Below, piece by piece: positions 7,226-33,286 of a stretch of 34,028 nucleotides of DNA. The notes beneath the pieces are model-generated. The model had not been told where the DNA came from. It made no database searches and saw only the letters and a list, made by a program, of their open reading frames with translations. Where the stretch lies: contig CAIKBD010000020.1 in the NCBI GenBank assembly GCA_903825565.1, forward strand, positions 1 to 34,028, in the 5' to 3' direction. The DNA comes from an uncultured Anaerolineales bacterium. GTDB taxonomy: Bacteria > Chloroflexota > Anaerolineae > UBA4142. Numbering within the stretch: position 1 is the first letter of the stretch; each line of letters opens with the position of its first letter. Made by a program: the position numbers and the translations under genes.

Positions 7226-8428
7226 TTAGTTAATCTGCTCGACGATCAGCGCCGCGCCTTGCCCCACGCCGATGCACATCGTCGCCAGCCCATAGCGCAC
7301 CTGGCGTCGCTTCATCTCGTGCACGAGCGTCGTCACAAGCCGCGCGCCGGTGCACCCTAACGGATGTCCCAGGGCAATCGCACCGCCGTTGACATTGGCA
7401 AGCGCGGGATCGATCTCCAACTCGCGCACGCACGCGACCGACTGGGACGCGAACGCTTCGTTCAACTCGATCAAGCCAATGTCACGCATCGTGAGACCCG
7501 CGCGTGCCAGCGCCTTTTTGGTCGCCGGAATTGGACCCAGCCCCATCAACCCAGGATCAACACCGGCAACCGCCGAGGCAACGATCCGGAACATGGTCGT
7601 GTGTCCGCGCGCGCGCGCTTTGTTCACACTCATCAACACGAGCGCCGCCGCGCCATCATTGATGCCCGACGAGTTGCCCGCTGTGACCGTGCCGCCTTTT
7701 TTGAACACGGGTTTGAGCGCGGCGAGTTGCTCAAGCGTCGTGTCGGGTCGGGGATGTTCGTCAGTGTCCACGATGATCGCCGCGCCTTTGGGTTGGGGAA
7801 CCTCGACCGGCACAAGCTCTTCTTTAAAGCGTCCCGCGCGAATTGCCGCACCGGCTTTTTGCTGGCTCGCGAGGGCAAACTCGTCCTGGTCTTCGCGGCT
7901 AATTTTGCATTGCTCTGCCACGTTCTCCGCCGTCTCGCCCAAACTGATCGGCGGATATTGCGCCGCCATCCTGGGATTCACAAACCGCCAACCCAGGGTG
8001 CTATCTTGCAATCCGATCTCGCCGCGGGGAAAACCGGTCTCGGGCTTGAGCATCACATAGGGCGACCGAGTCATGCTTTCGACGCCGCCCGCGATGATGA
8101 CCTCGCCATTCCCTGTTTGAATGGATTGCGCGCCAAAGATGATGGATTGCAAACCCGAAGCGCACAGACGATTGATGGTCACGCCCGCGACCTCGATCGG
8201 CAAGCCGGCGATGAGCAATGCCATGCGCGCGACGTTGCGATTGTCCTCGCCAGCTTGATTGACATCGCCAAAGATCACGTCTTCGACCTCGGCTGGGTTT
8301 ACGCCCGAGCGCTTGACCACTTCCCGGATCACGAGTGCGGCGAGATCATCCGGGCGCACATTTTTCAAAACGCCGCCATAGCGACCAATCGGCGTGCGAA
8401 CAGCTTCGACGATTACAGCATCTTGCAT
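7226..8428 (-). CDS. Thiolase, 3-oxoadipyl-CoA/acetyl-CoA acyltransferase type (PcaF/PaaJ-like)
   Basis: This 400-residue thiolase has the complete catalytic set: nucleophilic Cys89 in NRLCASGLQ, His355 in GHPLGCTG, and Cys385 in MCIGVGQG. The GWRFVNPRM and ETAENVAEQ segments resemble PcaF and PaaJ, which split 3-oxoadipyl-CoA into succinyl-CoA and acetyl-CoA. A general acetoacetyl-CoA thiolase is the alternative. It is the last gene of the - strand run that starts at 19682, so it would carry out the final CoA-dependent cleavage of the pathway. The ribosome-binding site AAGGAG lies 8 bp before ATG. Confidence 0.88.
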   Translation of the reverse strand: MQDAVIVEAVRTPIGRYGGVLKNVRPDDLAALVIREVVKRSGVNPAEVEDVIFGDVNQAGEDNRNVARMALLIAGLPIEVAGVTINRLCASGLQSIIFGAQSIQTGNGEVIIAGGVESMTRSPYVMLKPETGFPRGEIGLQDSTLGWRFVNPRMAAQYPPISLGETAENVAEQCKISREDQDEFALASQQKAGAAIRAGRFKEELVPVEVPQPKGAAIIVDTDEHPRPDTTLEQLAALKPVFKKGGTVTAGNSSGINDGAAALVLMSVNKARARGHTTMFRIVASAVAGVDPGLMGLGPIPATKKALARAGLTMRDIGLIELNEAFASQSVACVRELEIDPALANVNGGAIALGHPLGCTGARLVTTLVHEMKRRQVRYGLATMCIGVGQGAALIVEQIN

Positions 8429-8490: not shown

Positions 8491-9708
8491 TTAGTAGATA
8501 ATCTGCTCATCCTCTAGTTTTTTAATTTCTTCGCGTGACATACCGAGCAGACCGCCAAAAATTTCTTGGTTGTGTTCTCCCAAAAGTGGAGACGCTTGGC
8601 GAATCTTGGCAGGTGTTTCCGACAATTTCCAGGATGGATTGATCACCACCTTTTTGCCCATCACCGGATGATCAACCTGGTTGATCAAGTCGCGCGCCTT
8701 GACGTGCGGATCGGAAAGAATTTCTTCCGCGCTGAGCGAGGGCATCGCCGCGACGCCAGCATTTTGCAACATCGTCATCACTTGATAATGCGTATAGTTG
8801 ATTGTCCACGCCGAAATGAACTTGTCCAATTCACACCGATTCACCCAGCGATTGTACACGGTGGCAAAGCGTTCGTCCTGGCTCCATGCCGGATTGCCCA
8901 TCACGCCACAGAGCGCGCGCCACTCTTCGTCCGTTGCGACGGCGATGCTGATCCATTTGTCGTCGCCCTGGCAACGATAACAGTTGTGCGGTGCCATAAT
9001 CGAATCTTGATTACCCCGGCGAAACGGCGAGGTTTTATTCATCGTGTATTGCATCAGTTCAGAACCGATTAGCGCGCTGACACATTCGGACGAAGAGAGA
9101 TCAATGTACTGCCCCTCGCCGGTTTTTTGGTGATGGACGAGCGCGGCAAGTAAGACGAATGCCGATGCAGTGCCGACGCGCAAATCCATCACGCCGCTCA
9201 TCGTGTTGGGTTCGCCATCCTCATAGCCGGTGAGATGTGCCAGTCCGCCAAACGCGGCAAAGATCGGCGCATACCCGGCATACTCGCGATACGGTCCCGA
9301 GGAACCAAATCCCGATGCCGAGAGCATGATGATGTCGGGCTTGACCTTGACCAGGTCTGGATAGCCCAGTCCCAATTTGTCCATCACGCCCGGGCGCATG
9401 TTCTCGACGACCAGGTTGCTTGCCGCGATAATTTTTTTCGCCAGGTCTGCGCCTTCGGGACGACTCAGGTCGAGCGTGACGCTTTTCTTGTTCAAGTTGG
9501 CATTGTTGAAAATCGGCGAGGCATTAAAATCTTTGAAACTATCGCCGGTGGTAATTGAACCATGACGCGTTTGGTCAATGCGCTTGCGGCTTTCGATCTT
9601 GATGATTTCGGCTCCCAAGAAAGAGAGGAGCAAAGTGGCAAGCGGTCCTGCCCAGACCCAACTGAAATCGGCGACGCGGACCCCTTTGAGAGCATTTCTA
9701 TTTAGCAT
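8491..9708 (-). CDS. CaiB/BaiF family (class III) CoA-transferase A
   Basis: This 405-residue protein has the class III CoA-transferase fold. The N-terminal segment VRVADFSWVWAGPLATLLL and the LGAEIIKIE motif bind CoA. Asp175 in SGVMDLRVG is the likely catalytic residue that forms the acyl-aspartyl anhydride. Family members move CoA between organic acids (formyl-CoA:oxalate, carnitine, bile acids, benzylsuccinate). It lies 19 bp downstream of a second, divergent class III enzyme, and the pair may form a heteromer or activate two different acids. GAGGGGGAA precedes the ATG. The substrate cannot be read from the sequence. The neighbouring decarboxylase and thiolase suggest a dicarboxylic or branched acid. 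Confidence 0.9.
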   Translation of the reverse strand: MLNRNALKGVRVADFSWVWAGPLATLLLSFLGAEIIKIESRKRIDQTRHGSITTGDSFKDFNASPIFNNANLNKKSVTLDLSRPEGADLAKKIIAASNLVVENMRPGVMDKLGLGYPDLVKVKPDIIMLSASGFGSSGPYREYAGYAPIFAAFGGLAHLTGYEDGEPNTMSGVMDLRVGTASAFVLLAALVHHQKTGEGQYIDLSSSECVSALIGSELMQYTMNKTSPFRRGNQDSIMAPHNCYRCQGDDKWISIAVATDEEWRALCGVMGNPAWSQDERFATVYNRWVNRCELDKFISAWTINYTHYQVMTMLQNAGVAAMPSLSAEEILSDPHVKARDLINQVDHPVMGKKVVINPSWKLSETPAKIRQASPLLGEHNQEIFGGLLGMSREEIKKLEDEQIIY

Positions 9709-9727: not shown

Positions 9728-10936
9728 CTAAATAACGCCCGCTTCTCTGAACTTGACCAAGTCTAGCTTGGTGTATCCCAAGCGATTGCAATAAATTTCT
9801 TCGTTATGCTGACCCAGAAGCGGCGCACCGTGATTGTCGCGCGGCGCGGTTTTGGAAAGTTGGTACGGCAACCCCGGATACATCAATTTGCCGGCAAGTG
9901 GGTGATCGATCTCGACGTAAAAACCGCGCGCTTGCGCTTGCGGCGAATGGAACACTTGCTCCGCCGAGCAGACGGGCGCGCACGCCGTGCCTTGCGATTG
10001 GACGCGATGGAATAGTTCCTGGGTATCGTACTTGAGCGATTCTTCACGCAAACGAATCCGCAGATCGTTGAAATTCGCCTCGCGCGCTTTTTGCGTGCAG
10101 AATTTTTCTTCCTTGATCCATTCGGGATTGCCCAGCGCTTCCGCCAAGCCGGTCCACTGTTTTTCCGGATGCAAGACCACCATCACATAACCCCCGTCGC
10201 GACAGCGCAAGAGCGTATCGCGCACGCGGTTGATTTCATAACGCGTGGGGTTTTTACCCAGTTCATAATACCGCGCAATGTTCACGCGTTCGAGCGCCAT
10301 CTGCGCTTCTTGTTTGGAAATGTCGAGATACTGCCCAGTGCCGCCGGCAGTGCGCCAGTACAACGCGCCCATAATGCCGACCGATGCGCTGACCCCCGCA
10401 TCACATTCGCCGACAAAGCCGCCGCCCTTGATCGGTTCGCGCTCTGCATTCGGCGACGCGGCGGGCAGGACATAACCCCCGCCACTCGCGTGATAGGTGT
10501 TGAGATAGTATGCTTTGTAATCGCGATACGGTCCGTCTTGACCAAACGGCGTAATCGAAGCCATAATCAAAGCCGGATTGATTTGTTTGAGCACATCCCA
10601 GCCCAGCCCCAGCTTTGCCATCTCGCCCGGTGCGCGATCCTCAACCAGAATGTCCGCATCGGCGATCAATTTCTTAAAGATATCGCGCCCGGTTGCCGAA
10701 TCGAGATTGAGCGTGATTCCAAGTTTGTTCGTATTGAGATAGAGAAACAATCCTGCCAGTTCTGGATCGGGATGATCACCCAGAAACGCGCCGCGCTTTC
10801 GGGCTGGGTCACCTGCTGGTGTTTCGACCTTGATCACTTCTGCGCCGAGATCAGCAAAAAGTTTGGTGCAATACGGTCCCGCTACAAAACTACAATATTC
10901 AACTAGCTTCACACCGCTTAACGGTCCATCTGCCAT
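9728..10936 (-). CDS. CaiB/BaiF family (class III) CoA-transferase B
   Basis: This is a second class III CoA-transferase, 402 residues. It has VKLVEYCSFVAGPYCTKL at the N-terminus, LGAEVIKVETP, and Asp179 in GECDAGVSA as the probable catalytic aspartate. It is clearly divergent from the adjacent paralogue, so this is not a recent duplication. Adjacent pairs of unlike CaiB/BaiF proteins are known to form heteromers in some pathways, for example BbsE/BbsF. That arrangement is an inference here. GAAGGAG lies upstream of ATG. The gene follows bioY by 54 bp. Confidence 0.9.
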   Translation of the reverse strand: MADGPLSGVKLVEYCSFVAGPYCTKLFADLGAEVIKVETPAGDPARKRGAFLGDHPDPELAGLFLYLNTNKLGITLNLDSATGRDIFKKLIADADILVEDRAPGEMAKLGLGWDVLKQINPALIMASITPFGQDGPYRDYKAYYLNTYHASGGGYVLPAASPNAEREPIKGGGFVGECDAGVSASVGIMGALYWRTAGGTGQYLDISKQEAQMALERVNIARYYELGKNPTRYEINRVRDTLLRCRDGGYVMVVLHPEKQWTGLAEALGNPEWIKEEKFCTQKAREANFNDLRIRLREESLKYDTQELFHRVQSQGTACAPVCSAEQVFHSPQAQARGFYVEIDHPLAGKLMYPGLPYQLSKTAPRDNHGAPLLGQHNEEIYCNRLGYTKLDLVKFREAGVI

Positions 10937-10990: not shown

Positions 10991-11587
10991 TTAACTCAAC
11001 GCTTTGAGCAACGTCGCCAACGCACGTCCCGAAAGCGCAACGCCGCTCGCCACGATGGCTTTGCCCGCATCCACCAACACGAACGGCAATACGCCGAACT
11101 GCCACGCGCTCGCCAACTCCATAATCCAACTTGTGCCCTTGCCTATCGCAAACCAGGTCGCCAGCCACAACGCGCCGCAGAGATAAATTCCCGCCGTGCC
11201 CGCCAACCCAGCCACGCAAAAACGAATCCGGCTTGGGCGCGCGACGGACGCGGCGATCAACCCAGCCAGGTACGCACCCAGGACGAAGCCGAGCAGATAA
11301 CCGCCGGTCGGACCCAGCAACGCGACCAAACCGCTCTTGCCTTGTGCGAACACGGGCGCGCCGGCAAAACCCAGAGCCAGGTACTCGAGTTGACTCACCG
11401 CGCCCAACTTGCTTCCCAGCACCAAACCGGACAGCAAGACGAACAACACTTGCAGAGTGATCGGCACAGGACCGATGGGGATCTGAATCTGCGCGCCCAG
11501 CGCAGTGAGCAACGCAAAGCTGGTCGCCAGCAGAATCTGGCTTGGGAAAGTGGCCATTCGTGGAACCGATCGTGCGAACGCAGTCAT
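10991..11587 (-). CDS. bioY: Biotin transporter substrate-binding membrane protein BioY
   Basis: This 198-residue integral membrane protein has about six hydrophobic helices. It carries the BioY hallmarks IPIGPVPITLQVLFVLLSG near the N-terminus and GPTGGYLLGFVLGAYLAG in the middle. BioY is the biotin-specific S component of ECF transporters, working alone or with shared EcfAAT, which are not in this window. Its position between the CoA-transferases and the OadB/biotin-carrier genes fits a supply role, because the carrier protein encoded two genes upstream must be biotinylated. No biotin operator (BirA site) was recognised, so expression probably follows the operon. Confidence 0.92.
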   Translation of the reverse strand: MTAFARSVPRMATFPSQILLATSFALLTALGAQIQIPIGPVPITLQVLFVLLSGLVLGSKLGAVSQLEYLALGFAGAPVFAQGKSGLVALLGPTGGYLLGFVLGAYLAGLIAASVARPSRIRFCVAGLAGTAGIYLCGALWLATWFAIGKGTSWIMELASAWQFGVLPFVLVDAGKAIVASGVALSGRALATLLKALS

Positions 11588-11629: not shown

Positions 11630-12760
11630 CTAGCGCGCGAGCAGAGCCAGAATCGCGCCGCCCGCCATCACCGAACCGATTTGCCCCGCCGTGTTCGACG
11701 CCATCGCGTGCATAATCAAAAAGTTGTTTGGGTTCGCTTCCAACCCGAGCCGGCTAATCACGCGCGCCGACATCGGAAACGCCGAAATTCCGCACGCGCC
11801 GATCAGCGGGTTCACCTTGCCGCGCGTGAGAATGCTCAACGCTTTGCCGAAACTCAACCCCGCCACCGTGTCGAGCGCGAACGCGACCAAGCCCATTCCC
11901 AGAATACCCAGGGTTTCCCATTGCAAAAACTTGCCCGCTGTCATCGTCGAACCAATCGTCAGTCCCAGGAACAGCGTCACGATGTTGATCAGTTCGTTCT
12001 GCGCTGTGTTCGACAAGCGCGGCACCACGCCAGCTTCGCGAAGCAAGTTGCCCAGCATCAACATCCCGATCAGCGGCGCGGACAACGGAGCGATCAATCC
12101 GCACACCAACGTCACCACAATCGGAAAAACAATCTTGAGCCACTTGGACACTGGCTGGTTGTTCGTATACGGCATCGGCACGGCGCGTTCCGCTTCGGTC
12201 GTCAATGCCTTGATGATCGGCGGCTGAATGATCGGCACGAGCGACATGTACGAATATGCCGCCACCGCAATCGGCGCGAGCAAATCTGGTGCGAGCGCCG
12301 CGGCGACATAGATCGAAGTGGGACCATCGGCGGAACCGATAATGCCAATCGCAGCCGCGTCATTGATCTTGAAACCCATCAGCGTGGCGAGCATCAGCGT
12401 GCCAAAGATGCCAAACTGCGCCGCCGCGCCCAGGAGCACCGTGTACGGTCGCTCGAGCAGTGGACCAAAATCGCACATCGCCCCTACGCCGATAAAGATC
12501 AACAACGGAAATAATTCGTTCTTGATCCCAATGTTGTACAGAATGCCAAAAACACCATCGGGCTCGGTCATGCCCGTCACGGGGATGTTTGCCAGGATCG
12601 CGCCAATGCCGATGGGTAAGAGCAGAACTGGTTCGTACTCTTTTGCAATCGCCAGGTAGATCAGCACGCCGCCCACCAGAATCATGATCACATGACCCAG
12701 GCTGAGATTCGTCAAACCCTGGATCAATCGGGTCGAGACGGTTATATCAATGCCATTCAT
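11630..12760 (-). CDS. Na+-translocating decarboxylase beta subunit (OadB/GcdB/MmdB family)
   Basis: This 376-residue polytopic membrane protein forms the Na+ channel and carboxybiotin-decarboxylase part of the sodium-pumping decarboxylases. The family's ion-site segments are visible: GIIGSADGPTSIYVAAAL with the conserved Asp, and NPLIGACGISAFPMSARV near the C-terminus with the Asn, Gly, Ser and Arg positions used for Na+ and proton passage. It forms a unit with the OadG-biotin carrier gene 15 bp upstream and the carboxyltransferase beyond it. Sequence alone does not tell whether the complex acts on methylmalonyl-, glutaconyl-, malonyl-CoA or oxaloacetate. The CoA-transferases favour an acyl-CoA. 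Confidence 0.93.
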   Translation of the reverse strand: MNGIDITVSTRLIQGLTNLSLGHVIMILVGGVLIYLAIAKEYEPVLLLPIGIGAILANIPVTGMTEPDGVFGILYNIGIKNELFPLLIFIGVGAMCDFGPLLERPYTVLLGAAAQFGIFGTLMLATLMGFKINDAAAIGIIGSADGPTSIYVAAALAPDLLAPIAVAAYSYMSLVPIIQPPIIKALTTEAERAVPMPYTNNQPVSKWLKIVFPIVVTLVCGLIAPLSAPLIGMLMLGNLLREAGVVPRLSNTAQNELINIVTLFLGLTIGSTMTAGKFLQWETLGILGMGLVAFALDTVAGLSFGKALSILTRGKVNPLIGACGISAFPMSARVISRLGLEANPNNFLIMHAMASNTAGQIGSVMAGGAILALLAR

Positions 12761-12775: not shown

Positions 12776-13297
12776 CTATTCAATCTTGAAGAGCGGTGTG
12801 CCAAAGGGCACCGAGTCGCCGACCGCAACCAACACTTCCAGGATCGTACCGTCTTGCTGCGCCTTGACACTGTTCGCCATTTTCATCGCTTCGATCACGC
12901 ACAGCTCTTGCCCTTTGCGAATCGGGTCGCCGGGTTTCACCGCGACGGCAAGTAATTTGCCGGGAAGCGGCGCGGTAATTTTTTTACCGCCCACCGCTGG
13001 TTTAGTGGCAGTTGGTGCGACTGGCGCTGGAGCTGGGGCAGGACGCGGGGCGGAGGCAAGCGGTCTCAACGCGGGCGCGCTGGGCGCGGATGCCGCCGCG
13101 CTCACCGGCTTGACCGATGGCGCGGGTTCTGCCGGCGCAGATTCTTCGGCGGCGACTGGGACGGCGAGAAAATCTTTGCCGGTCGCCAGTGCAAAGATGC
13201 GACTGAGCACCATGATGGCAAACATCACGACGAGCAAAGCCAGGAACACAATGCCCAATCCATAGATCGTGACATTTAATGCGGTTACGAAATCCAT
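12776..13297 (-). CDS. OadG-type membrane anchor fused to biotin carboxyl carrier domain
   Basis: This 173-residue protein has a single N-terminal transmembrane helix (about residues 10-34), as in OadG/gamma subunits. An Ala/Pro-rich flexible linker follows (about 48-103), then a biotinyl domain (about 106-173) with the biotin attachment motif EAMKM, Lys139. It would carry CO2 as carboxybiotin from the soluble carboxyltransferase to the OadB membrane subunit. In many complexes gamma and the biotin carrier are separate chains. Here one chain does both, tethering the swinging arm to the membrane. RBS AAAGGAC precedes the ATG. Confidence 0.9.
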   Translation of the reverse strand: MDFVTALNVTIYGLGIVFLALLVVMFAIMVLSRIFALATGKDFLAVPVAAEESAPAEPAPSVKPVSAAASAPSAPALRPLASAPRPAPAPAPVAPTATKPAVGGKKITAPLPGKLLAVAVKPGDPIRKGQELCVIEAMKMANSVKAQQDGTILEVLVAVGDSVPFGTPLFKIE

Positions 13298-13420: not shown

Positions 13421-14983
13421 TTAAAGTGGAATGTTGCCGTGCTTTTTCCAGGGGCGATCACTCTTTTGTTTTTTCGCCAAACCGCGCAGAGCATTGATCA
13501 ACATTGGGCGCGTGTCGCGCGGGTCAATGATCTCGTCCGCCCATTGCATCGCCGCGGCGTGATACGGAAACTTGCCAAACGTCGCCCGGTATTCCTCGAG
13601 TCGGCGCGCGCGCACCTCATCCGGGTTTGGCGCGGCGGCAATCTCTTTGCGATAAATGATCGCGACCGCGCCCTCCGCGCTCATCAAACCCAGTTCGGCG
13701 GTGGGCCAGGCAAGCAACAAATCCGAACCCAGGGGTTCCGAGCACATGGCTTGGTTGCCGCCGCCGTACGCCTTGCGCACATACACCGTCACCATCGGCA
13801 CGGTTGCTTCCGAAATCGCGTGCAGAACTTTGGCGCCGTGCCGCAAAATTCCACCGTGCTCCTGATCAACCCCCGGCAAATACGCGGGCGTGTCTACCAA
13901 AAATACCAGGGGAATGTTGAACGCATCGCAAAAGCGAATAAAGCGCGCTTCCTTGTCGCTCGCGTTGATGTCAATCGTGCCTGCTAATGCTTGGGGATTG
14001 TTCGCCACAAATCCGACCGAGTGTCCATCGAGCCGACCGAAGCCGGTGATCATGTTTGGCGCGTATTCGGGTTTGATTTCAAAAAAATAATTATTGTCCA
14101 CGAGTCGCGTAATGATCGCGTGCATATCGTAGGGTTCGTGCGCGTCAGTCGGCACAATGTCAATCAAGTCCTCATCCCGGCGATTGGGATCGTCGTCGCT
14201 CTGATAAACTGGGGCTGGATCGGTATTGTTCGCCGGCAAGAAACTGATGAGTGCCCGGGCTTGGCGCAAACAATCTTCGTCGTCCTCCGCGACCAGGTCA
14301 CAACAACCGCTGATCGTCGCGTGGACTTGAGCGCCACCCAGTTCTTGTTCGTCAATCTCGACGAACTGCGCGGCTTTGATCAGCGTCGGCGAAGCGACGT
14401 ACATCGTACTCGTCTCGCGCACCATCAAAACAAAATCGGTGAGTGCAGGAGAGTACGCCGCGCCTGCCGCGCACGGTCCCATCATCAGCGTAATTTGGGG
14501 AATGACACCCGAGGCGAGGGTGTGCGCGTAGAACAGCGCGGGATAACTGTCGAACATACTGCGCGTGACCGCGTCTTGCACGCGCACGCCGCCCGAGTCC
14601 ACCAAGCCGATGCAGGGCACGCGTGCATCCAACGCGCGGCGCATAATGCGCAAAATCTTTTTTCCGCCGGTACTTGCCATCGTGCCGCCCGCGATCGTAA
14701 AATCTTGCGCGTACACGTAAACCGTCCGACCATCTACCGTGCCCGAGCCGGTGATGACACCATCGCCGGGCAATTCGCGCTCGTCAATATCAAACCCCGT
14801 CGGGCGCGATTTTGCCCACAGTCCCAGTTCGACAAAACTGCCGGGGTCGAGAAATTTTTCGATCCGCTCGCGCGCGGTGAGTTTGCCGCGTTGATGTTGC
14901 CGTTCCACTTCTTTTGCGCCGCCGCCTTGCACCAGCGCGGCGCGGCGTCGCGCGAGTTCGTCCAGTTTCGCTCGCATATCCAT
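13421..14983 (-). CDS. Biotin-dependent acyl-CoA carboxyltransferase subunit (methylmalonyl-CoA decarboxylase alpha / propionyl-CoA carboxylase beta family)
   Basis: This protein of about 520 residues has two crotonase-like carboxyltransferase domains. The N-terminal half shows KLTARERIEKFLDPGSF and the oxyanion segment YAQDFTIAGGTMAS. The C-terminal half shows GFVANNPQALAGTID and LVDTPAYLPGVDQE. The length suits MmdA or PccB better than the longer GcdA. No biotin carboxylase gene is nearby, but a Na+ pump and a membrane-bound biotin carrier are adjacent. The enzyme therefore most likely decarboxylates an acyl-CoA, transferring CO2 to biotin, rather than carboxylating one. I chose ATG 14983, 8 bp after AGGAG. 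A GTG at 14992 overlaps that site and is less likely. Confidence 0.9.
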   Translation of the reverse strand: MDMRAKLDELARRRAALVQGGGAKEVERQHQRGKLTARERIEKFLDPGSFVELGLWAKSRPTGFDIDERELPGDGVITGSGTVDGRTVYVYAQDFTIAGGTMASTGGKKILRIMRRALDARVPCIGLVDSGGVRVQDAVTRSMFDSYPALFYAHTLASGVIPQITLMMGPCAAGAAYSPALTDFVLMVRETSTMYVASPTLIKAAQFVEIDEQELGGAQVHATISGCCDLVAEDDEDCLRQARALISFLPANNTDPAPVYQSDDDPNRRDEDLIDIVPTDAHEPYDMHAIITRLVDNNYFFEIKPEYAPNMITGFGRLDGHSVGFVANNPQALAGTIDINASDKEARFIRFCDAFNIPLVFLVDTPAYLPGVDQEHGGILRHGAKVLHAISEATVPMVTVYVRKAYGGGNQAMCSEPLGSDLLLAWPTAELGLMSAEGAVAIIYRKEIAAAPNPDEVRARRLEEYRATFGKFPYHAAAMQWADEIIDPRDTRPMLINALRGLAKKQKSDRPWKKHGNIPL

Positions 14984-15001
14984 GACCCACACTCCTGTGA
15001 A

Positions 15002-15922
15002 CTAGAGACTTCGAATATAGCGACCCAGTGCCATCGCCGCCGTCACGCCGTCGCCAACCGCGGTCGCAAATTGCATCGGCGAATTGTGGCGAATGTCACC
15101 CGCCGCGAAAATACCTGGGATGCTCGTCTCCATATTTTCATTAACCGCAATTTGTCCGAGCGGGGTCAGCGGCAAAATATCGCGCACGAATTGCGTATTC
15201 GGAATGAGACCAATCCGCACGAGCAAGCCGGCGACCGCCAACTGACTCTTGACGCCGGTGGCGACATCTTCCAGTTCCAGCCCAGTCACCTTGTCATCGC
15301 CCAGCACTGCGGTGATCTTGGTCGCCAACTTGATTTCCATGTTCGGATTTGCCGCGACGCGATCCAACAACACCTGGGTCGCTTTGGCTTGGGGTAATAA
15401 TTCGACGATTGTAATTTTGCAACCCAGCGTTTGGAGATTCAGTCCGTCGTCCACGCCGGAATCGCCCGCGCCGGCGATGGCGAGCGGTTTGCCGGCATAT
15501 TCAGGTCCGTCGCACGTCGCGCAGTAGAACACGCCCCGTCCGTTGAACTCATCTTCGCCCGGCACACCCAGTTTGCGCGGATGCGCGCCGGTTGCGAGGA
15601 TGACGCCCTTGCACGTGCGGCTCTGGTCTTCGGTCTTGACGAGTTTGTATTGGGATTTGCTTTCGATGCCAAGGACCGTGCCGATTTCAACTTCCGCGCC
15701 GGCGTTCATCGCTTGTTCGAGCATCGCGGAACCGAGTTCGGGACCTTGGACGCCGTTCGCAAACCCCGGATAATTTTCGATGAGTTGGCGATTCATCAGT
15801 TCGCCGCCCATGATCTCTTTTTCGAGAATCAAGGTACGAAAGCCGGCGCGGCTCGTGTAGATGCCCGCCGCCAAGCCCGCACACCCAGACCCAATGATGA
15901 TTACGTCATAGTCGGTATACAT
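15002..15922 (-). CDS. Thioredoxin-reductase-like flavoprotein lacking the NADPH HRR motif
   Basis: This 306-residue protein has the bacterial thioredoxin reductase layout. There is an FAD site GSGCAGLAAG (Cys where most have Pro), an internal redox pair in FYCATCDG, a second nucleotide fold GAGDSGVDDGL, and a C-terminal PGIFAAGDIRH. The HRRxxxR segment that binds the NADPH 2'-phosphate in E. coli TrxB reads VELLPQAKATQ here, so NADPH may not be the donor. NADH or a ferredoxin-type donor is possible. It likely reduces a dithiol or selenenylsulfide partner, and the UGSC selenoprotein two genes upstream is the obvious candidate. Start ATG 15922 follows AAGGA by 6 bp. An upstream in-frame ATG lies inside a repeat arm region and was rejected. 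Confidence 0.85.
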   Translation of the reverse strand: MYTDYDVIIIGSGCAGLAAGIYTSRAGFRTLILEKEIMGGELMNRQLIENYPGFANGVQGPELGSAMLEQAMNAGAEVEIGTVLGIESKSQYKLVKTEDQSRTCKGVILATGAHPRKLGVPGEDEFNGRGVFYCATCDGPEYAGKPLAIAGAGDSGVDDGLNLQTLGCKITIVELLPQAKATQVLLDRVAANPNMEIKLATKITAVLGDDKVTGLELEDVATGVKSQLAVAGLLVRIGLIPNTQFVRDILPLTPLGQIAVNENMETSIPGIFAAGDIRHNSPMQFATAVGDGVTAAMALGRYIRSL

Positions 15923-15937
15923 ATTTGTTCCTTGCTT

Positions 15938-16014
15938 GTAAGGGCGAAGCATTTTTTCGTCTCTGAATTTCACGTTGCTCACGCAAAGCGTGCGAAAAAA
16001 TGCTTCGCCCTTAC
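15938..16014. repeat. Perfect 22-bp inverted repeat element between flavoprotein and MaoC-like genes
   Basis: The arms at 15938-15959 and 15993-16014 are perfectly complementary over 22 bp (core AAGGGCGAAGCATTTTTTCG) and separated by 33 bp. Inside is a smaller palindrome around CACGTTGCTCACGCAAAGCGTG. It looks like a non-autonomous, MITE-like or REP-like element. The length of 77 bp and absence of an ORF fit this. In RNA it would fold into a long hairpin between two operon genes. Confidence 0.75.
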
Positions 16015-16023: not shown

Positions 16024-17256
16024 CTAAAAGCTACCCTTGTATTCCGCACGCGAGACCAGTCGCACGATAAAGTTGGCGCGCGTGTGCACAACACCATCCT
16101 GGTTCTCGCCCCACACTTCGACATCTACCAAATGCTCGTCGTGCTCGACGAACTTGCGGACGACCTTGCCCTTGACCCAGGTCATGTCGCCCAAGAAATT
16201 CATGCGGCGATCCTGGGAATCCATCGTCTTGACGAACGCGTCGTCGCCCATCCAATCGGTGACGGCATGCACGAGCATCATCTCGTTGTGAATGCCGCCG
16301 ACATTCGCCAGCGGAATGCCGAACAGGCGCGCGGCGTGGTCTTCGTAATGCCAATCGCGGCGAATGCGATGCTCGCCGGTTTCCGGGTCAATCGGATGAT
16401 GTTGCAAATGTTTTCGCATCACCGCCCACTTGATCGCGAACGCGTACGGGTATGTGCTGACGATGGTGCGCGCGCACGCATCGGACACATCGTACGGTCC
16501 CTTGATGACGGGACGGATGTCCGCGCCCTCGACCACGTCTTCCCAGTAGAGCGTGTTCGCGCCGCGTCGCCCAACGCCGGCGAGTTGATCTTCGTACCCT
16601 TGATGAATCATCGCGAGTTCTTCTTCGCTGTAATGACGACGTTTTTTGTCGGCGTAGGGTTTGTTCTTTTTCTCTTCGCGTCTGCCCGGCGGCGTCGCCA
16701 TGTAAATGTTGCGCCCGGTGGCGACGGCGACAATCTCATCGCGCTGATTGATAAAATAGCGCGGCACGCTTTCGATAAACATGCGGTACGCTTTGCCTTC
16801 GGTCTTTTTCTCTTCAAAGCCCATGTATTTGTCATAGATGTGAAATTCATCGCCCGGGCGAATCGGCTTGAGATAATCGTGCTTGTTGCCCGCCGCCAAT
16901 CGCGCCACACCTGGGACGCGCAAACGTCCGCCGAACGACGAGCCAAACGAGATGCACGATTCAAACGTCGGCGGCGCGATGATGCCGCCCCAGCGCGTGC
17001 CCGCCGCGTACGATGGGTCGCGCCAAAATGGGCTTGGGTCGCCGATGGCATCGGCATAGTGTCGAATCAGGTCTTCGGTGACAAGTTTGTTGTTGATGCC
17101 GCGCTCGTACTCATTGTCCATGATCGCGTGCACCGGCGGCGGCGTTTTGATGTCGCCGCGTCCTTCGTTGAATTTGGCGATGTGCTCATCGAGCCGCTTG
17201 TTCCACTCGTCGTCGCTCAAATTATCCCAGTTGTATTCTGATGCATTCTCTGCCAT
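16024..17256 (-). CDS. MaoC/FAS1-like double-hotdog acyl-CoA dehydratase or hydratase
   Basis: This 410-residue protein appears to have two hotdog domains. The N-terminal domain (about 50-190) contains YADAIGDPSPFWRD, GGIIAPPTFESC and IRPGDEFHIYDKY, the signature of MaoC_dehydrat_N/FAS1-like dehydratases. The C-terminal domain (about 230-405) has WEDVVEGADI, a central HxxxDxxxA-like region (NEMMLVHAVTDWMGD) and a final FLGDMTWVKGKVV segment. The family adds or removes water at the 2,3 position of acyl-CoAs. It follows the selenoprotein gene by 43 bp and has RBS GAGGAG 6 bp before ATG. The substrate is unknown. Its position suggests hydration or dehydration of the CoA intermediate before decarboxylation and thiolysis. 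Confidence 0.82.
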   Translation of the reverse strand: MAENASEYNWDNLSDDEWNKRLDEHIAKFNEGRGDIKTPPPVHAIMDNEYERGINNKLVTEDLIRHYADAIGDPSPFWRDPSYAAGTRWGGIIAPPTFESCISFGSSFGGRLRVPGVARLAAGNKHDYLKPIRPGDEFHIYDKYMGFEEKKTEGKAYRMFIESVPRYFINQRDEIVAVATGRNIYMATPPGRREEKKNKPYADKKRRHYSEEELAMIHQGYEDQLAGVGRRGANTLYWEDVVEGADIRPVIKGPYDVSDACARTIVSTYPYAFAIKWAVMRKHLQHHPIDPETGEHRIRRDWHYEDHAARLFGIPLANVGGIHNEMMLVHAVTDWMGDDAFVKTMDSQDRRMNFLGDMTWVKGKVVRKFVEHDEHLVDVEVWGENQDGVVHTRANFIVRLVSRAEYKGSF

Positions 17257-17299: not shown

Positions 17300-19003
17300 T
17301 TACTTGTTTTTACTTGCTTTCAACAACTCGTCCCAGTTCGCCGGCAATTCGATTTTTTTGCTGACCGGATAACCGATGTAGCCGTTGTTCGCGCAAATGA
17401 GCACATGGTCGCGGTCTGGGTCGCCGCTAATCATCACCAGGAAATCATCGGGACACGAAACCATTTGAATATCGCGCTCCAAATCTTTGGTCGTGCCGAG
17501 TTGTTCGGGCCAATTGCCTTCCCCAATGCCCTTGTAAAAACGATTGACGATCATGCCGCTCAATCGGCTGACGCGCAGTTTCGCGTTTTTGTAGAAATGC
17601 TCTTTCACTTGGGCTTTGCTATAACCCGCATCCGTCAAAACTTTCAGCACTGCCGGCGTGAGCACAATCGTGGGGCGCGTCCGCATGCCACGGAAAAAGA
17701 ATTGGATGAACATGTGATTGTCCGCCATGCGCGCTTCGATGTTTTTCAGAATCTCTTCCGCCGTTGGCGCGCCCACCTCGATGGCTTGGGTCTTTTCCGT
17801 ACACGATATAATCGTGATGATGTTGTCGCCTGCCGCGAATCCTTGGTCAACGCTCATCGGCTCCCAGCCCATCTTGGCAACCGCCTCTTCATTTTCGGCG
17901 AGGACGATGCGAAAGTTACTGCCAAAGCATCCCTTGTCGGTTTTGTGTGGCAAAAAGCCGGCGACGTTACGCAGATACATGCGCCAGAAACGACCGACGC
18001 TCGTGTTCGCTTGAAAGCCCGGACGCAACGCGCCTTGCGTGCAATTGAATCCCAGGTCCTTGATGATTTTGCCGTTGAGCATTATCAAGGTCTCTGTCCC
18101 CGGTGTGTGTCCCAGGTGTTCTTGCCCAAACACCGGGTCAACCATCGCTTCGACAATCGCAATCAAGACCGGCATGTATTCCGGCTTGCAACCCGACAAC
18201 ACGCCGTTGACCGCAACGTTCCAAATCGTCGCTTCACGATTGTCGGGCAACAGTTTGCCGATGACATCGTCCGCCAAACGATTCGTGAACTTGAGGAATT
18301 GTTCCACCTTGGTAACGGTCGGCGGAACAATCGGCAGACCGTCGCTCCACTCGCGGTCGTAGAAAAATTCGTTGACCTCTTCAAACGAGCCGCTAAAAAC
18401 GACATCGCGCAGCCCAGGTTCGGGAGCGGGTTTGGCTTCTGGCGGTTGGACGGTTAAACCTTTGACAACCTGATCGAGCATGATCGTCGTGGCATTCTTC
18501 TTCACCTGCTCGACTGTCGCGAGATTGAGATGCCCGGGATGAACTGTGTACGGCAAATTCGGCATGCCCATGCCTTTTGCCGACAGACGACCCTGCGTCA
18601 AGAAACCATCGCAAACAATGCTGACGGTGGGGATGCCCAGTTTTTCAACCAGGACGCTTGCCCGTGTAACCGCGGGCGTGCAACTCCCTCAACACCCGAC
18701 GCCGCAGATCACGGCGTCAACATTAAACTGTTTGAGTTTTTCGGGGAGCGCTTTGAGCACCTCGGCTTCATTCGCGCCGTGAATTTCGCCGAACTCGCGC
18801 CAACTCACAAATTTAATCCCAGGATATTTTTTCGCGAGTTCTTGTTCAAAGACATCGAACAGCACGTCGCCTTTGAAAATCCAGTCCCACAACTCGGCGA
18901 CGACTTTGCCTTCGAGCGATTTGTGTCGCTTTGCCAGTTTGCCGCCGACATCAATTCGTTTGCCGCGCGGCCATACAACATCGTATTTGAAAGAATCAGT
19001 CAT
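17300..19003 (-). CDS. UGSC-family selenoprotein; in-frame TGA read as selenocysteine (Sec105)
   Basis: Two open segments, 18692-19003 and 17300-18688, are in the same frame and separated only by TGA at 18689-18691. Read through, they give 567 residues with the motif Cys104-Sec105-Gly106-Ser107-Cys108. UGSC is the defining motif of a selenoprotein family of unknown function. Residues 1 to about 185 form the UGSC domain, including FNVDAVICGVGC before and SCTPAVTRASVLVEKLGIP after the site. After a Pro-rich linker, residues from about 200 form a second uncharacterised domain with EWSDGLPIVPPT. The start ATG 19003 follows AAGGGGAG. TGA works as a normal stop elsewhere (for example tctA and the dioxygenase), so this is not global recoding. 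Sec next to two Cys suggests a selenenylsulfide redox or selenolate-nucleophile chemistry. No signal peptide is seen. The alternative is a nonsense mutation, but its location exactly at the motif argues against that. Confidence 0.9.
18651..18691 (-). promoter_or_regulatory. Candidate bacterial SECIS hairpin following the Sec codon
   Basis: Numbering the mRNA from the U of UGA, GCCCG (15-19; genomic 18677-18673) pairs with CGGGC (28-32; 18664-18660). This leaves the 8-nt loop CGGUUACA with GG at 21-22. A lower stem GGGA (4-7) with UCCU (38-41) is possible across an internal loop. Distance to the apical loop and a G-containing loop agree with bacterial SECIS elements recognised by SelB. The fold was judged by eye. 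Confidence 0.6.
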
Positions 19004-19025: not shown

Positions 19026-19682
19026 CTAAATTCCCAGGTCTTCGCCGACGATGATCACCGTGATTCGCCCCTTTTCCGCCGGCTGGCATCCGTCAATAAT
19101 CGCCGTGTACCGAAGCGCGCCCCAGCCGAGACCTTCTTGCCGGTGCTTGGTCTGATGCCGCAATGCATTGAGCGGCGCGCAAAAATTCCGGATGCGTTTC
19201 AACGCTTCGTCGAGGTCTTGCACAATCTTGTTGCCGCCGGTGACGACAATTGTTTTCTTGGGTCCGAACATCATCGCGGCGACACGATTGCCCGCGCCAT
19301 CCGTGCTGACGATGGTTCCTTCAAGCGTTATCGCATTCGTGCTCGTCAAATACACGTCAGAGGTCAACGCCTCACGTTGCAGTTGCCGCCGCTCCTCGCG
19401 CTTGGGATTGTGTCCCTTTTCATCTGTTTGGACGGGGTTGATAATCCGGTTCTGCCCGCGCTTTTGCAGTTCCTCGATCACGTCCAATTGGTTCAGCGTC
19501 ATCGAATCGCCCCGCCCGACGACTGCGCCGGGTGGAACAAGCGACAGCACCAGAGCGAGCGCCTCTTGACGATTGGGCACATAAAACCCATCCATATTCT
19601 TTTTTTGCAGGTTCTCGATTACGGTTTTCGAGCGCATTTCGTAGAACTGGCGCAATTCGTTGCTGTAATCCACATCACCCAT
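19026..19682 (-). CDS. LUD-domain (LutC/YkgG-like) protein
   Basis: This 218-residue protein matches the LUD fold. It starts with a helical segment (NELRQFYEMRSKTVIENLQKK), then VGRGDSMTLNQLDVIEEL, where LutC proteins have a glycine-rich VxxGxSxT loop. It ends with TDGAGNRVAAMMFGPKKTIVVTGGNKIVQDLDEAL. LutC with LutA and LutB oxidises L-lactate, but here no LutA or LutB is present. The gene is first in the run leading to the selenoprotein 22 bp downstream and follows promoter 19744-19773 with its TGAAAC operator. LUD proteins bind a nucleotide- or CoA-like ligand by fold similarity. The actual role in this operon is unknown and may be accessory to the UGSC protein. Confidence 0.85.
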   Translation of the reverse strand: MGDVDYSNELRQFYEMRSKTVIENLQKKNMDGFYVPNRQEALALVLSLVPPGAVVGRGDSMTLNQLDVIEELQKRGQNRIINPVQTDEKGHNPKREERRQLQREALTSDVYLTSTNAITLEGTIVSTDGAGNRVAAMMFGPKKTIVVTGGNKIVQDLDEALKRIRNFCAPLNALRHQTKHRQEGLGWGALRYTAIIDGCQPAEKGRITVIIVGEDLGI

Positions 19683-19784: not shown

Positions 19785-19813
19785 AAAAAAAGGCGTAGGT
19801 TACCGGTTTACGC
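19785..19813 (-). terminator. Probable terminator of the ABC transporter operon
   Basis: On the - strand GCGTA (19813-19809) and TACGC (19797-19793) form a 5-bp stem around the stop codon of the last ATPase gene. They are followed by C and seven T (to 19785). The stem is short but the U-tract is clear, and a new promoter begins 12 bp further on. Confidence 0.55.
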
Positions 19814-20795
19814 GGATACAAGCGACTTGGTGCCCATTTCCTACATCGTGCAATTGAGGCGCAATTTGACGGCATTCGGCGATTGCCTCGCTACAACGGG
19901 GGTGAAATGCGCATCCGGGGGGAGGATTTAACGGACTAGGCACCTCGCCTTTGAGAAGAATGATCTTGCGCTTTGCCTCAACGAACGGATCGGCGATGGG
20001 CACAGCCGACAGCAATGCTTTGGTGTATGGGTGGAGCGGGTTCTGATACAGCGCGTCCGAGTCGGTGATTTCGACAATGCGTCCCAGGTACATCACGGCG
20101 ATTCGGTCGCTGATATGGCGGACGACGGAAAGATCGTGCGCGATAAAAATGTACGTCAACCCTTGGATGCCGCGTTGCAGTTCTTTCAACAGGTTGATGA
20201 TCTGCGCTTGAATCGAAACGTCGAGAGCCGAGATGGGTTCATCGCAAATGATCAACGATGGGTCGCACGCCAGCGCGCGCGCGATGCCGATGCGTTGGCG
20301 TTGTCCGCCGCTAAACTCGTGCGGCACGCGATCCGTCATCGAGGGATCGAGTCCGACGCGTTGAAAAAGATGCTCGATCCGTTCGTGGTACTCGGCTTTG
20401 CTCTTGGTCATCCTGTGAATGATCAACGCTTCGCCGACGATACTGCCAGCGCTTTGGCGCGGATCCAACGAGCCATACGGGTCTTGAAACATCAACGCCA
20501 TCTTGCGGCGCAGTTGGCGCATTTTGCCGGATGATAGGGTGAGGATATTTTGTCCTTCAAAAAACACTTGCCCCGCTGTTGGCTCGATCAAGCGCAAAAC
20601 GCCGCGCCCCACGGTCGTTTTGCCGCAACCGCTTTCGCCGACTAGTCCCAACGTTTCGCCGGCGTTCACTTGGAAACTCACGTCGTCTACGGCTTTGACA
20701 TCGGCGACTTTGGTTCGCAATAGCCCCCGCGTCACGGGGAAATACATCTTGAGATTTTTTACATCAAGCAGAGGATTATTTGTCGTCGTTTTCAA
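19800..20795 (-). CDS. Peptide/opine-type ABC transporter ATP-binding protein (DppF/OppF family)
   Basis: This 331-residue cytoplasmic ATPase contains Walker [10 protein letters not shown] at about 53-61, Q-loop region [13 protein letters not shown], signature [15 protein letters not shown] and Walker [13 protein letters not shown], followed by the H-loop FIAHDLSV. The C-terminal oligopeptide_HPY extension includes [22 protein letters not shown] in the Q-loop region is typical of the F-type subunit. It pairs with the D-type ATPase whose 3' end overlaps its start by 20 bp. It powers import by the two permeases encoded upstream. Confidence 0.95.
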
Positions 20796-21780
20796 GCGTT
20801 GCCTCCAGGTTCACGAAACACGCCGCCGAATGATGTTCTCCCACCGGGGTCAGGGGGGGCCAATGCGATTTTTCACACCGATTGATGCGGTACGCGCACC
20901 GTGGCAGGAAAGCGCACATCGGCGGCATCTTGATCAGATTGGGCGGCAAGCCCTCAATCGGAACGAGTTGTTTGTCGCGCGGTTGATCGAGTCGTGGCAC
21001 ACATTTCAGCAAGCCCACCGTGTAGGGGTGGCGCGGATGCGCGAAAATTTCATTGGTCGGTCCGGCTTCGACGATGCGACCGGCATACATCACATAGATG
21101 CGTTGCGCGTACCGCGCGACGACACCCAGGTTATGGGTGACGAGTGTTAATGACGTGTTGAATCGTTTGACCAAATCCTTGATCAATTCTAGCAACACGG
21201 CTTGGGTGGTCACATCGAGCGCAGTTGTGGGTTCGTCTGCGATAATCAGTCTGGGATTGCAGGCGAGTCCGATGGCGATCATCACGCGTTGCCGCATCCC
21301 GCCGCTGAATTGATGCGGGTAATCATCAATCCGACTTTCAGCGGCGGGGATACCGACCAGGGATAATAATTCAACGGCGCGCTTGCGCGCATCGGCTTTG
21401 TTCAGTCTCAGGTGCAATTGCATGGATTCGCCAATCTGTTCGCTGATCGTGAGCACGGGATTCAGCGAAGTCATCGGCTCTTGAAAAATCATCGAGATTT
21501 TCGAGCCGCGCACCGACCGCATTTCCGAACCATTCCGTTCGTATTTCAGCAAGTCCTTGCCGTCAAACCACACTTCGCCGCCGATGATGCGACCGGGAGG
21601 ATTCGGGATGAGTTGCATGACGGACAACTGCGTCACCGATTTGCCACAGCCGCTTTCACCAACAAACCCCACAATCTCCTGTTCGTTGATATGAAAGGAG
21701 ACACCGTCCACTGCCTTGACCACACCGGCTTCGGTGTCGAAGCGTGTCTGCAAATTTTTTACGTCCAACAAGATTGCCAT
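20776..21780 (-). CDS. Peptide/opine-type ABC transporter ATP-binding protein (DppD/OppD family)
   Basis: This 334-residue ATPase has Walker [23 protein letters not shown] in the Q-loop region, signature [17 protein letters not shown] and Walker [13 protein letters not shown]. The C-terminal HPY region [20 protein letters not shown] contains the cysteines often seen in this subfamily. It is the partner of the DppF-like subunit in a heterodimeric motor. The ATG follows AAGGGG, 14 bp after the permease stop. The substrate class (peptide, opine, glycoside, nickel) cannot be read from the ATPase. Confidence 0.95.
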
Positions 21781-21794
21781 AATTTTTCCCCTTG

Positions 21795-22691
21795 TTACAA
21801 CCGTCCGCGCAATCTGGGATCCAGGGCATCGCGCAGTCCATCGCCGATCATGTTAAAGCCAAACACCACGAGCATGATGGCAACGCCGGGAGCGATGGAT
21901 AGGAGCGGATGATCCATCAAGTATTCGCGGGCGTTGGAGATCATTGCCCCCCATGCCGGCGTCGGTTCTTGAATCCCAATACCGAGAAAGCTCAAGGTGG
22001 CTTCCGCGAGAATTGTTCCGCCAAGTGTCAACGTGAATTGCACAATCAGAGGCGCGACGCTATTCGTAAAGAGATGATTGAAGAGAATTCGCCAGTCGTT
22101 TGCGCCGAGGGATTTGACCGCGAGGATATAATCGTTTTCCTTGACCGAAACAACTTGCCCTGCCATCAAGCGCGCGTACTGCGGCATCTGGCTCACGCTC
22201 AGAGCGATGATGACATTCGTTTCGCCTCCGCCCAGCAAGGCGGCGATGACGAGCGCCAACACGACGACGGGGATGGACATTAACGCGTCAATAAAGCGCA
22301 TGATGATCGCTTCGATCCAGCCACCATAATATGCGGCGACGCCTCCCAGGATCATTCCGACGATGCTGGCAAGCCCCACCGACAGCAAGCCGATTTGGAG
22401 CGAAGTCCTGGCTCCGTAAATGATGCGGCTCAAGATGTCCCGTCCATAGTTGTCGGTGCCGAGCCAGTGTTGCCAACTCGGATCCTGGAGACGTTCACGC
22501 AGATTGATTTTGATCGGATCATACGGCGCGATCCAGGGTCCGATGATCGCCATTAAAACCAAAAAGCCAATGATCACCGTGCCAAAGACCACAACCCGCC
22601 GACCGAAAAAGACGCGGCGGAACCGGCGCCATTCGCTGGCACGGGGCGGAGTTTCACTTTTGTCCGTCCAAGTGGTTTCGTTACTGGACAT
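21795..22691 (-). CDS. Peptide/opine-type ABC transporter permease (DppC/OppC family)
   Basis: This 298-residue permease has a cytosolic N-terminus, one helix (about residues 33-55), a periplasmic loop with the typical HWLGTDNYGRDILSRIIYG segment, and then five helices. The EAA-like loop reads VKSLGANDWRILFNHLF and contacts the ATPases. The C-terminus FGFNMIGDGLRDALDPRLR is the family end signature. It forms the channel with the DppB-type permease 9 bp upstream. RBS GGAGAAGAG precedes ATG. Confidence 0.95.
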   Translation of the reverse strand: MSSNETTWTDKSETPPRASEWRRFRRVFFGRRVVVFGTVIIGFLVLMAIIGPWIAPYDPIKINLRERLQDPSWQHWLGTDNYGRDILSRIIYGARTSLQIGLLSVGLASIVGMILGGVAAYYGGWIEAIIMRFIDALMSIPVVVLALVIAALLGGGETNVIIALSVSQMPQYARLMAGQVVSVKENDYILAVKSLGANDWRILFNHLFTNSVAPLIVQFTLTLGGTILAEATLSFLGIGIQEPTPAWGAMISNAREYLMDHPLLSIAPGVAIMLVVFGFNMIGDGLRDALDPRLRGRL

Positions 22692-22700
22692 ACTCTTCTC

Positions 22701-23657
22701 CTAACTGTAGCGAATGCGCGGGTCAGCCCAACCGTAGACGATATCAATCAACACGTTGATCGCTACAACCGTCGCCGCAATAATCAAAATGATGCCCTGA
22801 ACATAGGCATAATCCAGATTGCTCACGGCACTCACGAGCAGACGCCCCATCCCCGGAATGCTAAAGACAGTCTCGACGACGGTTGACCCGCCGACGATGC
22901 CACGCGCGCTCAAGCCGAGCGTGGTGATGACCGGGATGAGTCCATTCTTGAGCGCATGTTTGAAGATGATCGCATTTTCGTTCAGCCCTTTCGACCAAGC
23001 CGTGCGAATGTAATCCTGGTGCATCACTTCCAACATGCTGGAACGAGTTTGTCGCGCGAGTGCCGCCACGCTAAAAAGCGAGGAACAAATGACCGGCATG
23101 ACGAGTTGCTTGAAATGCATGCCCGGGTCTTCGGTGAGCGGGGTGAAACCCATAACGGGGAGCCATTTGAGATAGAGACTGAACACCAACATCAAGATCA
23201 CGCCGAGCCAAAACACCGGAATCGTGACGCCAATGTTGCTCAGCGTGACGACGAGTTGATCAATCCACGTGCCGCGTCTGACCGCGCTGATGATCCCGAC
23301 GGGCACACCAATCACAATACTTAGCAAGAGCGACCAGAGACCGATTTCAAAGGTGATGGGGAGCCGCCGAAAAATCTCTTTTGCGACCGGCGTCTTGGTA
23401 AAGACCGAGATACCCAGGTTGCCCTGCAAAACTCCGCCGAGCCAATCCAAGTACTGCAACGCCAGCGGCTTGTCCAGACCATATTCGTGGCGTAAATCGG
23501 CAAGTTGCTGTGGGGAAAGCCCCGTAAGATTGCTTTCGTACACCATCAATTTGATTGGATCGCCTGGCATGAGCCGGATTGCCAGAAAAACAAAAATACT
23601 GACCAATAGCAAAACCACTATTGATTGCAACAACCGTCTGACGATATATGTTGTCAC
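22701..23657 (-). CDS. Peptide/opine-type ABC transporter permease (DppB/OppB family)
   Basis: This 318-residue permease starts at GTG 23657 (VTTYIVRRLLQSIVVLLLVS), with AAGGAA about 8 bp upstream. An in-frame extension to 23846 would run through a palindrome and antisense to the neighbour gene, so it was rejected. Typical features are IRLMPGDP after the first helix, LGLDKPLALQYLDWLGGVLQGNLG-like sequence, and the EAA loop HALKNGLIPVITTLGL. It ends with VYGWADPRIRY. Six helices fit the family. It is the inner-membrane partner of the DppC-type permease. Confidence 0.93.
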   Translation of the reverse strand: MTTYIVRRLLQSIVVLLLVSIFVFLAIRLMPGDPIKLMVYESNLTGLSPQQLADLRHEYGLDKPLALQYLDWLGGVLQGNLGISVFTKTPVAKEIFRRLPITFEIGLWSLLLSIVIGVPVGIISAVRRGTWIDQLVVTLSNIGVTIPVFWLGVILMLVFSLYLKWLPVMGFTPLTEDPGMHFKQLVMPVICSSLFSVAALARQTRSSMLEVMHQDYIRTAWSKGLNENAIIFKHALKNGLIPVITTLGLSARGIVGGSTVVETVFSIPGMGRLLVSAVSNLDYAYVQGIILIIAATVVAINVLIDIVYGWADPRIRYS

Positions 23658-23670
23658 GTCCGATTCCTTC

Positions 23671-23711
23671 AGCCCGGTCAGGTCTCGCCGAAAGGGAGAC
23701 CTGACCGGGCT
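23671..23711. repeat. Perfect 16-bp hairpin between binding-protein and permease genes
   Basis: Arms AGCCCGGTCAGGTCTC (23671-23686) and its complement (23696-23711) enclose a 9-nt loop. On the - strand it starts 8 bp after the binding-protein stop and ends just before the permease ribosome-binding site. Such a hairpin could lower expression of the permeases relative to the binding protein by partial termination or by mRNA stabilisation. Confidence 0.75.
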
Positions 23712-23718
23712 TGACATT

Positions 23719-33078: not shown

Positions 33079-33250
33079 CTAAACTCCTCACGCCAGTGTG
33101 TGAGCAATTAGGTTAGGAAGAACAGAGTCGTATGAAAAAAATAAGAACATGGGTAAACGCTCATCCCCGGTCTGCTTGCCGTTCTCGCCAATCCGCGCAA
33201 GCCCTGGAGAACCATTGGCCTCGACCAAGACCGATGGTGCCCCACTTAAA

Positions 33251-33286
33251 TCATCCCAGCAACTCGCCAAAGAGTTGCTGGGATGA
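33251..33286. repeat. Perfect 15-bp hairpin between tctC and tctA
   Basis: TCATCCCAGCAACTC (33251-33265) and its complement (33272-33286) with a 6-nt loop lie 13 bp after the tctC stop. There is only a weak TTT run on the - strand, so mRNA protection or partial attenuation of tctAB is likelier than full termination. The rest of the 220-bp gap shows no promoter or gene that I would defend. Confidence 0.7.

Follow-up and report, generated by a model that had tools for sequence, protein, structure and literature searches.

A probable two-domain selenoprotein of the UGSC family in an uncultured Anaerolineales bacterium, with a UGSC domain that resembles the selenocysteine end of GrdB and PrdB

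Analysis of a 34,028-nucleotide stretch of DNA from an uncultured Anaerolineales bacterium (hereafter, the window) revealed that the gene at 17300..19003 on the minus strand (ATG to TAA, 567 residues) very probably encodes a real selenocysteine (Sec)-containing protein of a known but uncharacterised family, in which the UGA codon would otherwise be called a stop. On the evidence of profile comparisons, the kinship of its UGSC domain to the Sec end of the selenoproteins GrdB and PrdB appears well supported, and the domain seems remotely related to the enzymes with which anaerobes degrade glycine and proline.

The frame from 19003 to 17300 on the minus strand is interrupted by a single TGA (18689..18691, minus strand), interpreted here as Sec at the first position of the UGSC motif (U105); in the translation with TGA as Sec, residue 105 lies in the context GVGC-U-GSC. 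An earlier note on this DNA had described one frame broken by this codon alone, in the context C-U-G-S-C, and both its coordinates and the length of 567 residues were correct. Its assignment of the protein to the UGSC family also held. The read-through protein matched PF24696 (UGSC) over residues 8–184 with an E-value of 1.9e-36 and 126.2 bits (gathering score 25), spanning profile positions 1–171 of 172, and the separate halves matched the same family with E-values of 2.6e-10 before the TGA and 3.8e-17 after it. Since each half alone matches PF24696, the TGA codon lies inside one domain. This UGSC domain, a GrdB/PrdB-like Sec domain by PF24696 and profile comparison (residues 8–184; 18452..18982, minus strand), is joined by a Pro-rich linker (residues 185–197; 18413..18451, minus strand) to a second domain (residues 198–567; 17303..18412, minus strand). 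The NCBIfam model UGSC_fam (NF041046) matched with an E-value of 2.3e-16 and 60.1 bits, which is below its curated equivalog cut-off of 125. With U105 first and C108 fourth in the motif, the window protein fits the Sec/Cys...Cys pattern of the UGSC family. TGA is still the stop codon of 4 of the 28 listed window genes; a wholesale reassignment of the codon is therefore unlikely and was set aside.

A scan of genome contigs for relatives yielded 16 loci, which together with a second copy in one of them (L034) gave 17 relatives and a close alignment of 18 sequences, the window protein included. The relatives were 48–83% identical to the window protein and collinear with it across the TGA, the Pro-rich linker, and the second domain (EWSDGLPIVPPT), which bears out the fusion through this linker proposed in the earlier note. 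TGA occupied the site in 13 of the 16 relative loci, as in the window, and Cys in the other three, which belong to Novosphingobium flavum, Paracoccus aminovorans, and Amaricoccus solimangrovi. A wider set of UGSC domains comprised 80 rows, reduced to 57 distinct ones, and included two partial repeats of genes from the bacterium's own genome. In this set, which was gathered by homology and consists of mutually related rows rather than a random sample, the residue at position 105 was U (TGA) in 50 of the 57 distinct rows, and Cys in 4, while Gly, Thr, and a gap occurred once each; Cys was present at position +3 in 53 of the 57. The comparison of homologues suggested earlier was thereby carried out, and a conserved true stop was not the pattern. 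Because this TGA recurs in independent genomes, it is very unlikely to be a local sequencing error.

The motif varies among these sequences. Seven rows (L054, L057, L061, L062, L063, L067, and L069) carry GVGH-USTC instead of UGSC, so the name of the motif does not suit every member. In addition, GASG replaces UGSC in the tandem copy beside the Sec-form gene in L034 (L034:1385-3025); this copy nevertheless shares 59% identity with the window protein and is possibly a catalytically silent partner.

The genome bin of the window has a size of 6.37 Mb in 530 contigs, with 93.2% completeness and 4.55% contamination. A search of this bin for selA, selB, selC, and selD, also proposed in the earlier note, detected selA, selD, two selB genes (one of them partial), and two tRNA-Sec genes over the cut-off, with the anticodon tca (ARAGORN); since the bin may hold foreign contigs, the linkage of the window contig to this machinery rests on the binning. 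The selD gene at locus L017 (own-genome contig C39) itself has an in-frame TGA and lies approximately 190 bp upstream of selB. The bin contains seven UGSC loci, six of them with an in-frame TGA. Among the genomes of the 13 Sec-form relatives, tRNA-Sec was over the cut-off in 11 (missing in L036 and L041) and selB in 10 (missing in L034, L036, and L041). All three Cys-form hosts have tRNA-Sec and selB; thus, a lost Sec machinery does not account for their Cys, and the contrast between Sec and Cys hosts proved uninformative in this respect.

Further UGSC paralogues of the same genome have motifs of their own. Four UGSC-fusion paralogues with the motifs CGCI, UGSC, UGSC, and UGTC stand in tandem at locus L088 (contig C488). 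The paralogue L026/L090 (contig C435) reads GIGG-U-U-A-C at the motif, with two consecutive TGA codons, and has two further in-frame TGA codons near its end (GGHUTU). The second, third, and fourth of these codons were absent from the other fetched relatives, and the end part of the gene could alternatively represent a frameshift. Its N-terminus is signal-peptide-like by reading of the sequence, a tRNA-Sec gene follows it on the same strand after approximately 60 bp, and its post-UGA fold z-score was −3.62.

A candidate bacterial SECIS hairpin was located at 18660..18677 on the minus strand, with 5 pairs and a loop of 8 nt starting 16 nt after the UGA. Across 17 distinct Sec genes, 75.5% of the cells paired at the named position versus 21–47% when the partner was slid by 1–3 columns, and the observed pairing was reached by 1 of 500 shuffles. 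Of the six slid hairpins, two scored higher than the named one in covariation, and five equalled it in pairs changed on both sides; thus, these data support a hairpin, but covariation does not prove it. For the window gene alone, the results were not significant, since 61 of 200 shuffles folded at least as well and 55% of synonymous resamplings scored as well; the resampling test gave values below 0.05 for only 2 of 18 Sec genes. In 49 Sec genes, the stretch of 42 nt following the UGA folded more strongly than in their synonymous versions (mean z −1.00, SE 0.19; window gene −1.4). The same test gave mean z values from −0.15 to −0.52 for six control windows and −0.44 (SE 0.26) for four Cys genes, in which one control window reached −1.47; because the genes are related, these standard errors are too small. 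Rfam returned no match at gathering scores. The hairpin appears to be supported at the level of the family only, not for the window gene taken alone.

The relationship to GrdB emerged from several profile comparisons. A profile of 47 UGSC domains scored one GrdB at 50.8, compared with at most 28.9 for 187 ORFs of the neighbourhood (the value of a TrxB-like protein), some of which are probably not real genes, at most 20.8 for 50 shuffled GrdB sequences, and 25.9 for the reversed GrdB. In hhalign, the E-values of which refer to single comparisons, the UGSC domain aligned with 11 GrdB sequences over 101 columns at a probability of 95.7% (E 8.9e-9), with Sec aligned to Sec. The alignment with three PrdB sequences, whose name rests on PF07355, length, and motif, had a probability of 80.4% and placed UGTC and GIPT against UGSC and GIPT. 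In the reverse direction, read-through GrdB and PrdB matched PF24696 with E-values of 0.0043 and 0.0029 (17.6 and 18.2 bits), below the cut-off of 25, and GrdB also matched HGD-D at 0.004, which is equal in strength to its UGSC match. The PF07355 (GRDB) model stops just before Sec, and the shared part after Sec is therefore missing from it. PF07355 was absent from the 12 Pfam families matched by the 18 members at E-values up to 10, a range in which the HMMER filters drop most matches above approximately 0.1. No member of the GrdB family was found in the bacterium's own genome, 14 controls were silent, and the same model found a match in one of six genomes of relatives. The search of the PDB by sequence gave a best E-value of 0.025 (tropinone reductase) for query A1 and nothing convincing for GrdB or PrdB.

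The predicted model of the fusion protein (pLDDT 86.4, pTM 0.88) alternated regularly between strands and helices in the UGSC domain, with Sec105 between strand 97–103 and helix 108–121, and suggests that this domain is flavodoxin-like alpha/beta rather than thioredoxin-like. Of 1318 Foldseek matches to the whole protein, two had an E-value of at most 0.001; both were fumarate hydratases with poor superposition. None of the best 50 of the 1318 was named thioredoxin, and several of these 50 (azoreductase, NQO1, SsuE) are proteins that we take to be flavodoxin-like. Such rows were absent among the best 50 Foldseek matches of the second domain alone; thus, they probably come from the UGSC domain. 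Given the strand-helix alternation of the model and the lack of a named thioredoxin in the best 50 of 1318, a thioredoxin fold was regarded as unsupported.

The second domain was uncharacterised, as the earlier note had stated, with chance-level Pfam and NCBIfam matches only. The best Pfam E-value other than that of UGSC was 0.035 among the 18 relatives, and the best NCBIfam E-value for the domain was 0.021. Foldseek with the second domain alone gave no clear fold match, and the listed rows were headed by fumarate hydratase (best E 3.3e-3). A kinship to this enzyme was set aside, both for the domain and for the whole protein (E 1.6e-4), because the rmsd was approximately 14–20 and the TM-score 0.14–0.29. 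No kinship was detected between the second domain and the proteins at the GrdE/PrdA position (profile probability at most 0.12%), where the names GrdE and PrdA are assigned from gene position; among the window genes, the comparison covered this domain. The substrate chemistry therefore need not be the same.

The second domain was matched at an E-value of at most 1e-20 in 32 of 301 genomes of the same phylum, own genome included. Thirty loci were fetched, one each from 30 of these 32 genomes: 13 were fused (window gene included), 16 were split, with one frame for the UGSC domain and another, on the same strand, for the second domain, and 1 showed the second domain only. Because the two domains are fused in some genomes and encoded by neighbouring genes elsewhere, this distribution suggests that they are two parts of one enzyme.

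The genes from the LUD-domain protein to the thiolase (19682 down to 7226) are all on the minus strand, with gaps of 9–123 bp. The LUD-domain protein (19026..19682) is encoded directly upstream of the UGSC-fusion gene after a gap of 22 bp, and a MaoC/FAS1-dehydratase-like protein (16024..17256) directly downstream. These are accompanied by genes for a thioredoxin-reductase-like (TrxB-like) flavoprotein with a CATC motif, which is a candidate electron donor (15002..15982; TIGR01292, 315.8 bits, below the cut-off of 343.45), a carboxyl transferase domain protein, probably a decarboxylase alpha subunit (13421..14992), a biotin carrier protein (12776..13297), a Na+-transporting decarboxylase beta subunit (OAD_beta; 11630..12760), a BioY biotin transporter component (10991..11587), two family III CoA-transferases (9728..10936 and 8491..9708), and a thiolase (7226..8428). 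The operon is catabolic. Upstream on the same strand are TctA/TctB/TctC-type and oligopeptide ABC-type transporter genes (31058–34027 and 19800–25422 of the window), of which TctA was named by Pfam and the TctB/TctC-type and ABC-type from the sequence only.

Comparison of 37 loci revealed a TrxB-like gene in 13, namely in 12 of the 17 close loci, the window among them, and in 1 of 20 more distant ones, three of which are own-genome paralogue regions. Homologues of the MaoC-like protein were found at 9 of the 37 loci, of the CoA-transferase at 9, and of MmgE/PrpD at 6; all of these counts are approximate, as gene calling relied on a simple script and contig edges cut some loci short. The UGSC frame of L037 directly adjoins the TrxB-like gene. 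The neighbouring transporters and CoA enzymes suggest that the substrate is a carboxylate.

The reading that we favour, tentatively and without holding it to be probable, is that this two-domain UGSC-family protein contains Sec, acts as a selenol reductase, is fed by NAD(P)H, and cleaves a bond in a substrate of the carboxylate/CoA pathway. It builds on the observed conservation of the Sec site, the machinery in the bin, the pairing of the domains, and the gene order. As conservation and gene content indicate, the UGA at 18689–18691 would be decoded as Sec by the cell's own SelA, SelB, SelD, and tRNA-Sec. In the predicted model, Sec would lie between a beta strand and the next helix, immediately ahead of that helix, within an alpha/beta domain of the flavodoxin-like type. 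The second domain would hold the substrate, and the selenolate of Sec105 would attack it and reductively break a carbon-heteroatom bond, after which Sec105 would be joined to Cys108 of UGSC in a selenenyl-sulfide. Thiols that draw on NAD(P)H via the TrxB-like flavoprotein of the same operon would then reset this bond, while the product may be passed on to the CoA-transferase, hydratase, Na+-pumping decarboxylase, and thiolase that are encoded alongside. More generally, it is conceivable, although we consider it doubtful, that UGSC proteins and their partner stand beside GrdB and PrdB as a third branch of this type of selenol reductase, in which a new partner replaces GrdE/PrdA and a dedicated TrxB-like donor serves reductive cleavage in CoA-ester catabolism, with hosts including Actinobacteria, Alphaproteobacteria, and Clostridia.

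Other explanations were weighed against the reductase reading. A Sec thiol-disulfide oxidoreductase or peroxidase-like protein of redox defence, with the thioredoxin-like fold proposed in print, would account for the UxxC motif and for the TrxB-like gene nearby. However, the UGSC domain of the predicted model alternates beta and alpha elements at the pLDDT and pTM given above, no thioredoxin is named in the best 50 of 1318 Foldseek matches, several of which we take to be flavodoxin-like, the profile similarity goes to GrdB/PrdB, and the operon is one of catabolism, so that we regard this role as unlikely. A selenol isomerase, lyase, or acyl-transfer unit, in which Sec would act as a nucleophile on CoA/carboxylate substrates with no net reduction and in an Asp/Glu-racemase-like catalytic-Cys fold, seems more doubtful still. 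The neighbours are indeed CoA-ester enzymes, and over its Sec region GrdB matches a glutamate racemase at chance level (E 0.99), but the racemase family PF01177 was absent from the Pfam matches of the 18 relatives (nor did it match in the own genome, searched for comparison), and redox turnover is suggested both by the conservation of UxxC and by the neighbouring TrxB-like gene.

The view that the gene does not encode a selenoprotein, being a pseudogene, a sequencing error, or two proteins separated by a true stop, could draw on the stop codon in the sequence itself and on the weakness of the SECIS hairpin for the window gene. It is nevertheless extremely improbable: both halves are conserved in many genomes, as is TGA or Cys at the site, the bin contains the Sec machinery, and six of seven own-genome UGSC loci carry the TGA.

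The UGSC family and its abundance are known (PMC2398784, PMC9402790, PMC9312934, PMC5029168). According to a marine survey, UGSC-containing proteins made up 8.2% of selenoprotein genes and were among the commoner ones (PMC9402790), and in a 2026 review, UGSC is placed among the families with largely uncharacterized functions (PMC13188914). Zhang and Gladyshev (2008) reported a UGSC/Unknown_1 fusion and, in the same paper, a Trx-like fold was suggested (PMC2398784). The fusion described in the earlier note is thus real but not new in kind. A UGSC domain is fused to an unknown conserved domain in both cases, and the architecture of the window protein is possibly that of UGSC/Unknown_1. Compared with the PF24696/NF041046 family, the window protein shares the whole UGSC domain with Sec, whereas it adds a 370-residue domain with chance-level matches only and remains below the NF041046 cut-off. 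The UGSC family and the fusion of UGSC to an unknown domain are already in print; the resemblance to GrdB/PrdB, the split or fused partner pairing, and the TrxB-like neighbourhood are added here. A link between UGSC and GrdB/PrdB was not found stated in the searched part of the open-access literature. The codon called as a stop and the GRDB model ending before Sec suggest that the link was easy to miss, as the Pfam model omits much of the part common to UGSC and GrdB/PrdB. With a partner domain defined and a candidate donor that recurs, this link offers a concrete, testable reaction type for an unknown family.

In glycine reductase, according to PMC13188914, GrdB is the substrate-binding subunit and Trx is the reductant via GrdA. 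GrdB (PF07355; glycine/sarcosine/betaine reductase selenoprotein B) and the UGSC domain share UG[ST]C with Sec after a DAVI strand, as well as E..GIP.V followed by a conserved P/HP region. In contrast, GrdB has approximately 245 more residues before its Sec than the UGSC domain, and its neighbouring protein is unrelated to the second domain of the window protein. A thioredoxin-reductase gene is known from GrdB operons. PrdB, the small Sec subunit of D-proline reductase, shares UGTC and GIPT, aligned to UGSC and GIPT, and differs in that its adjoining protein, presumably PrdA, is dissimilar to the second domain of the window protein.
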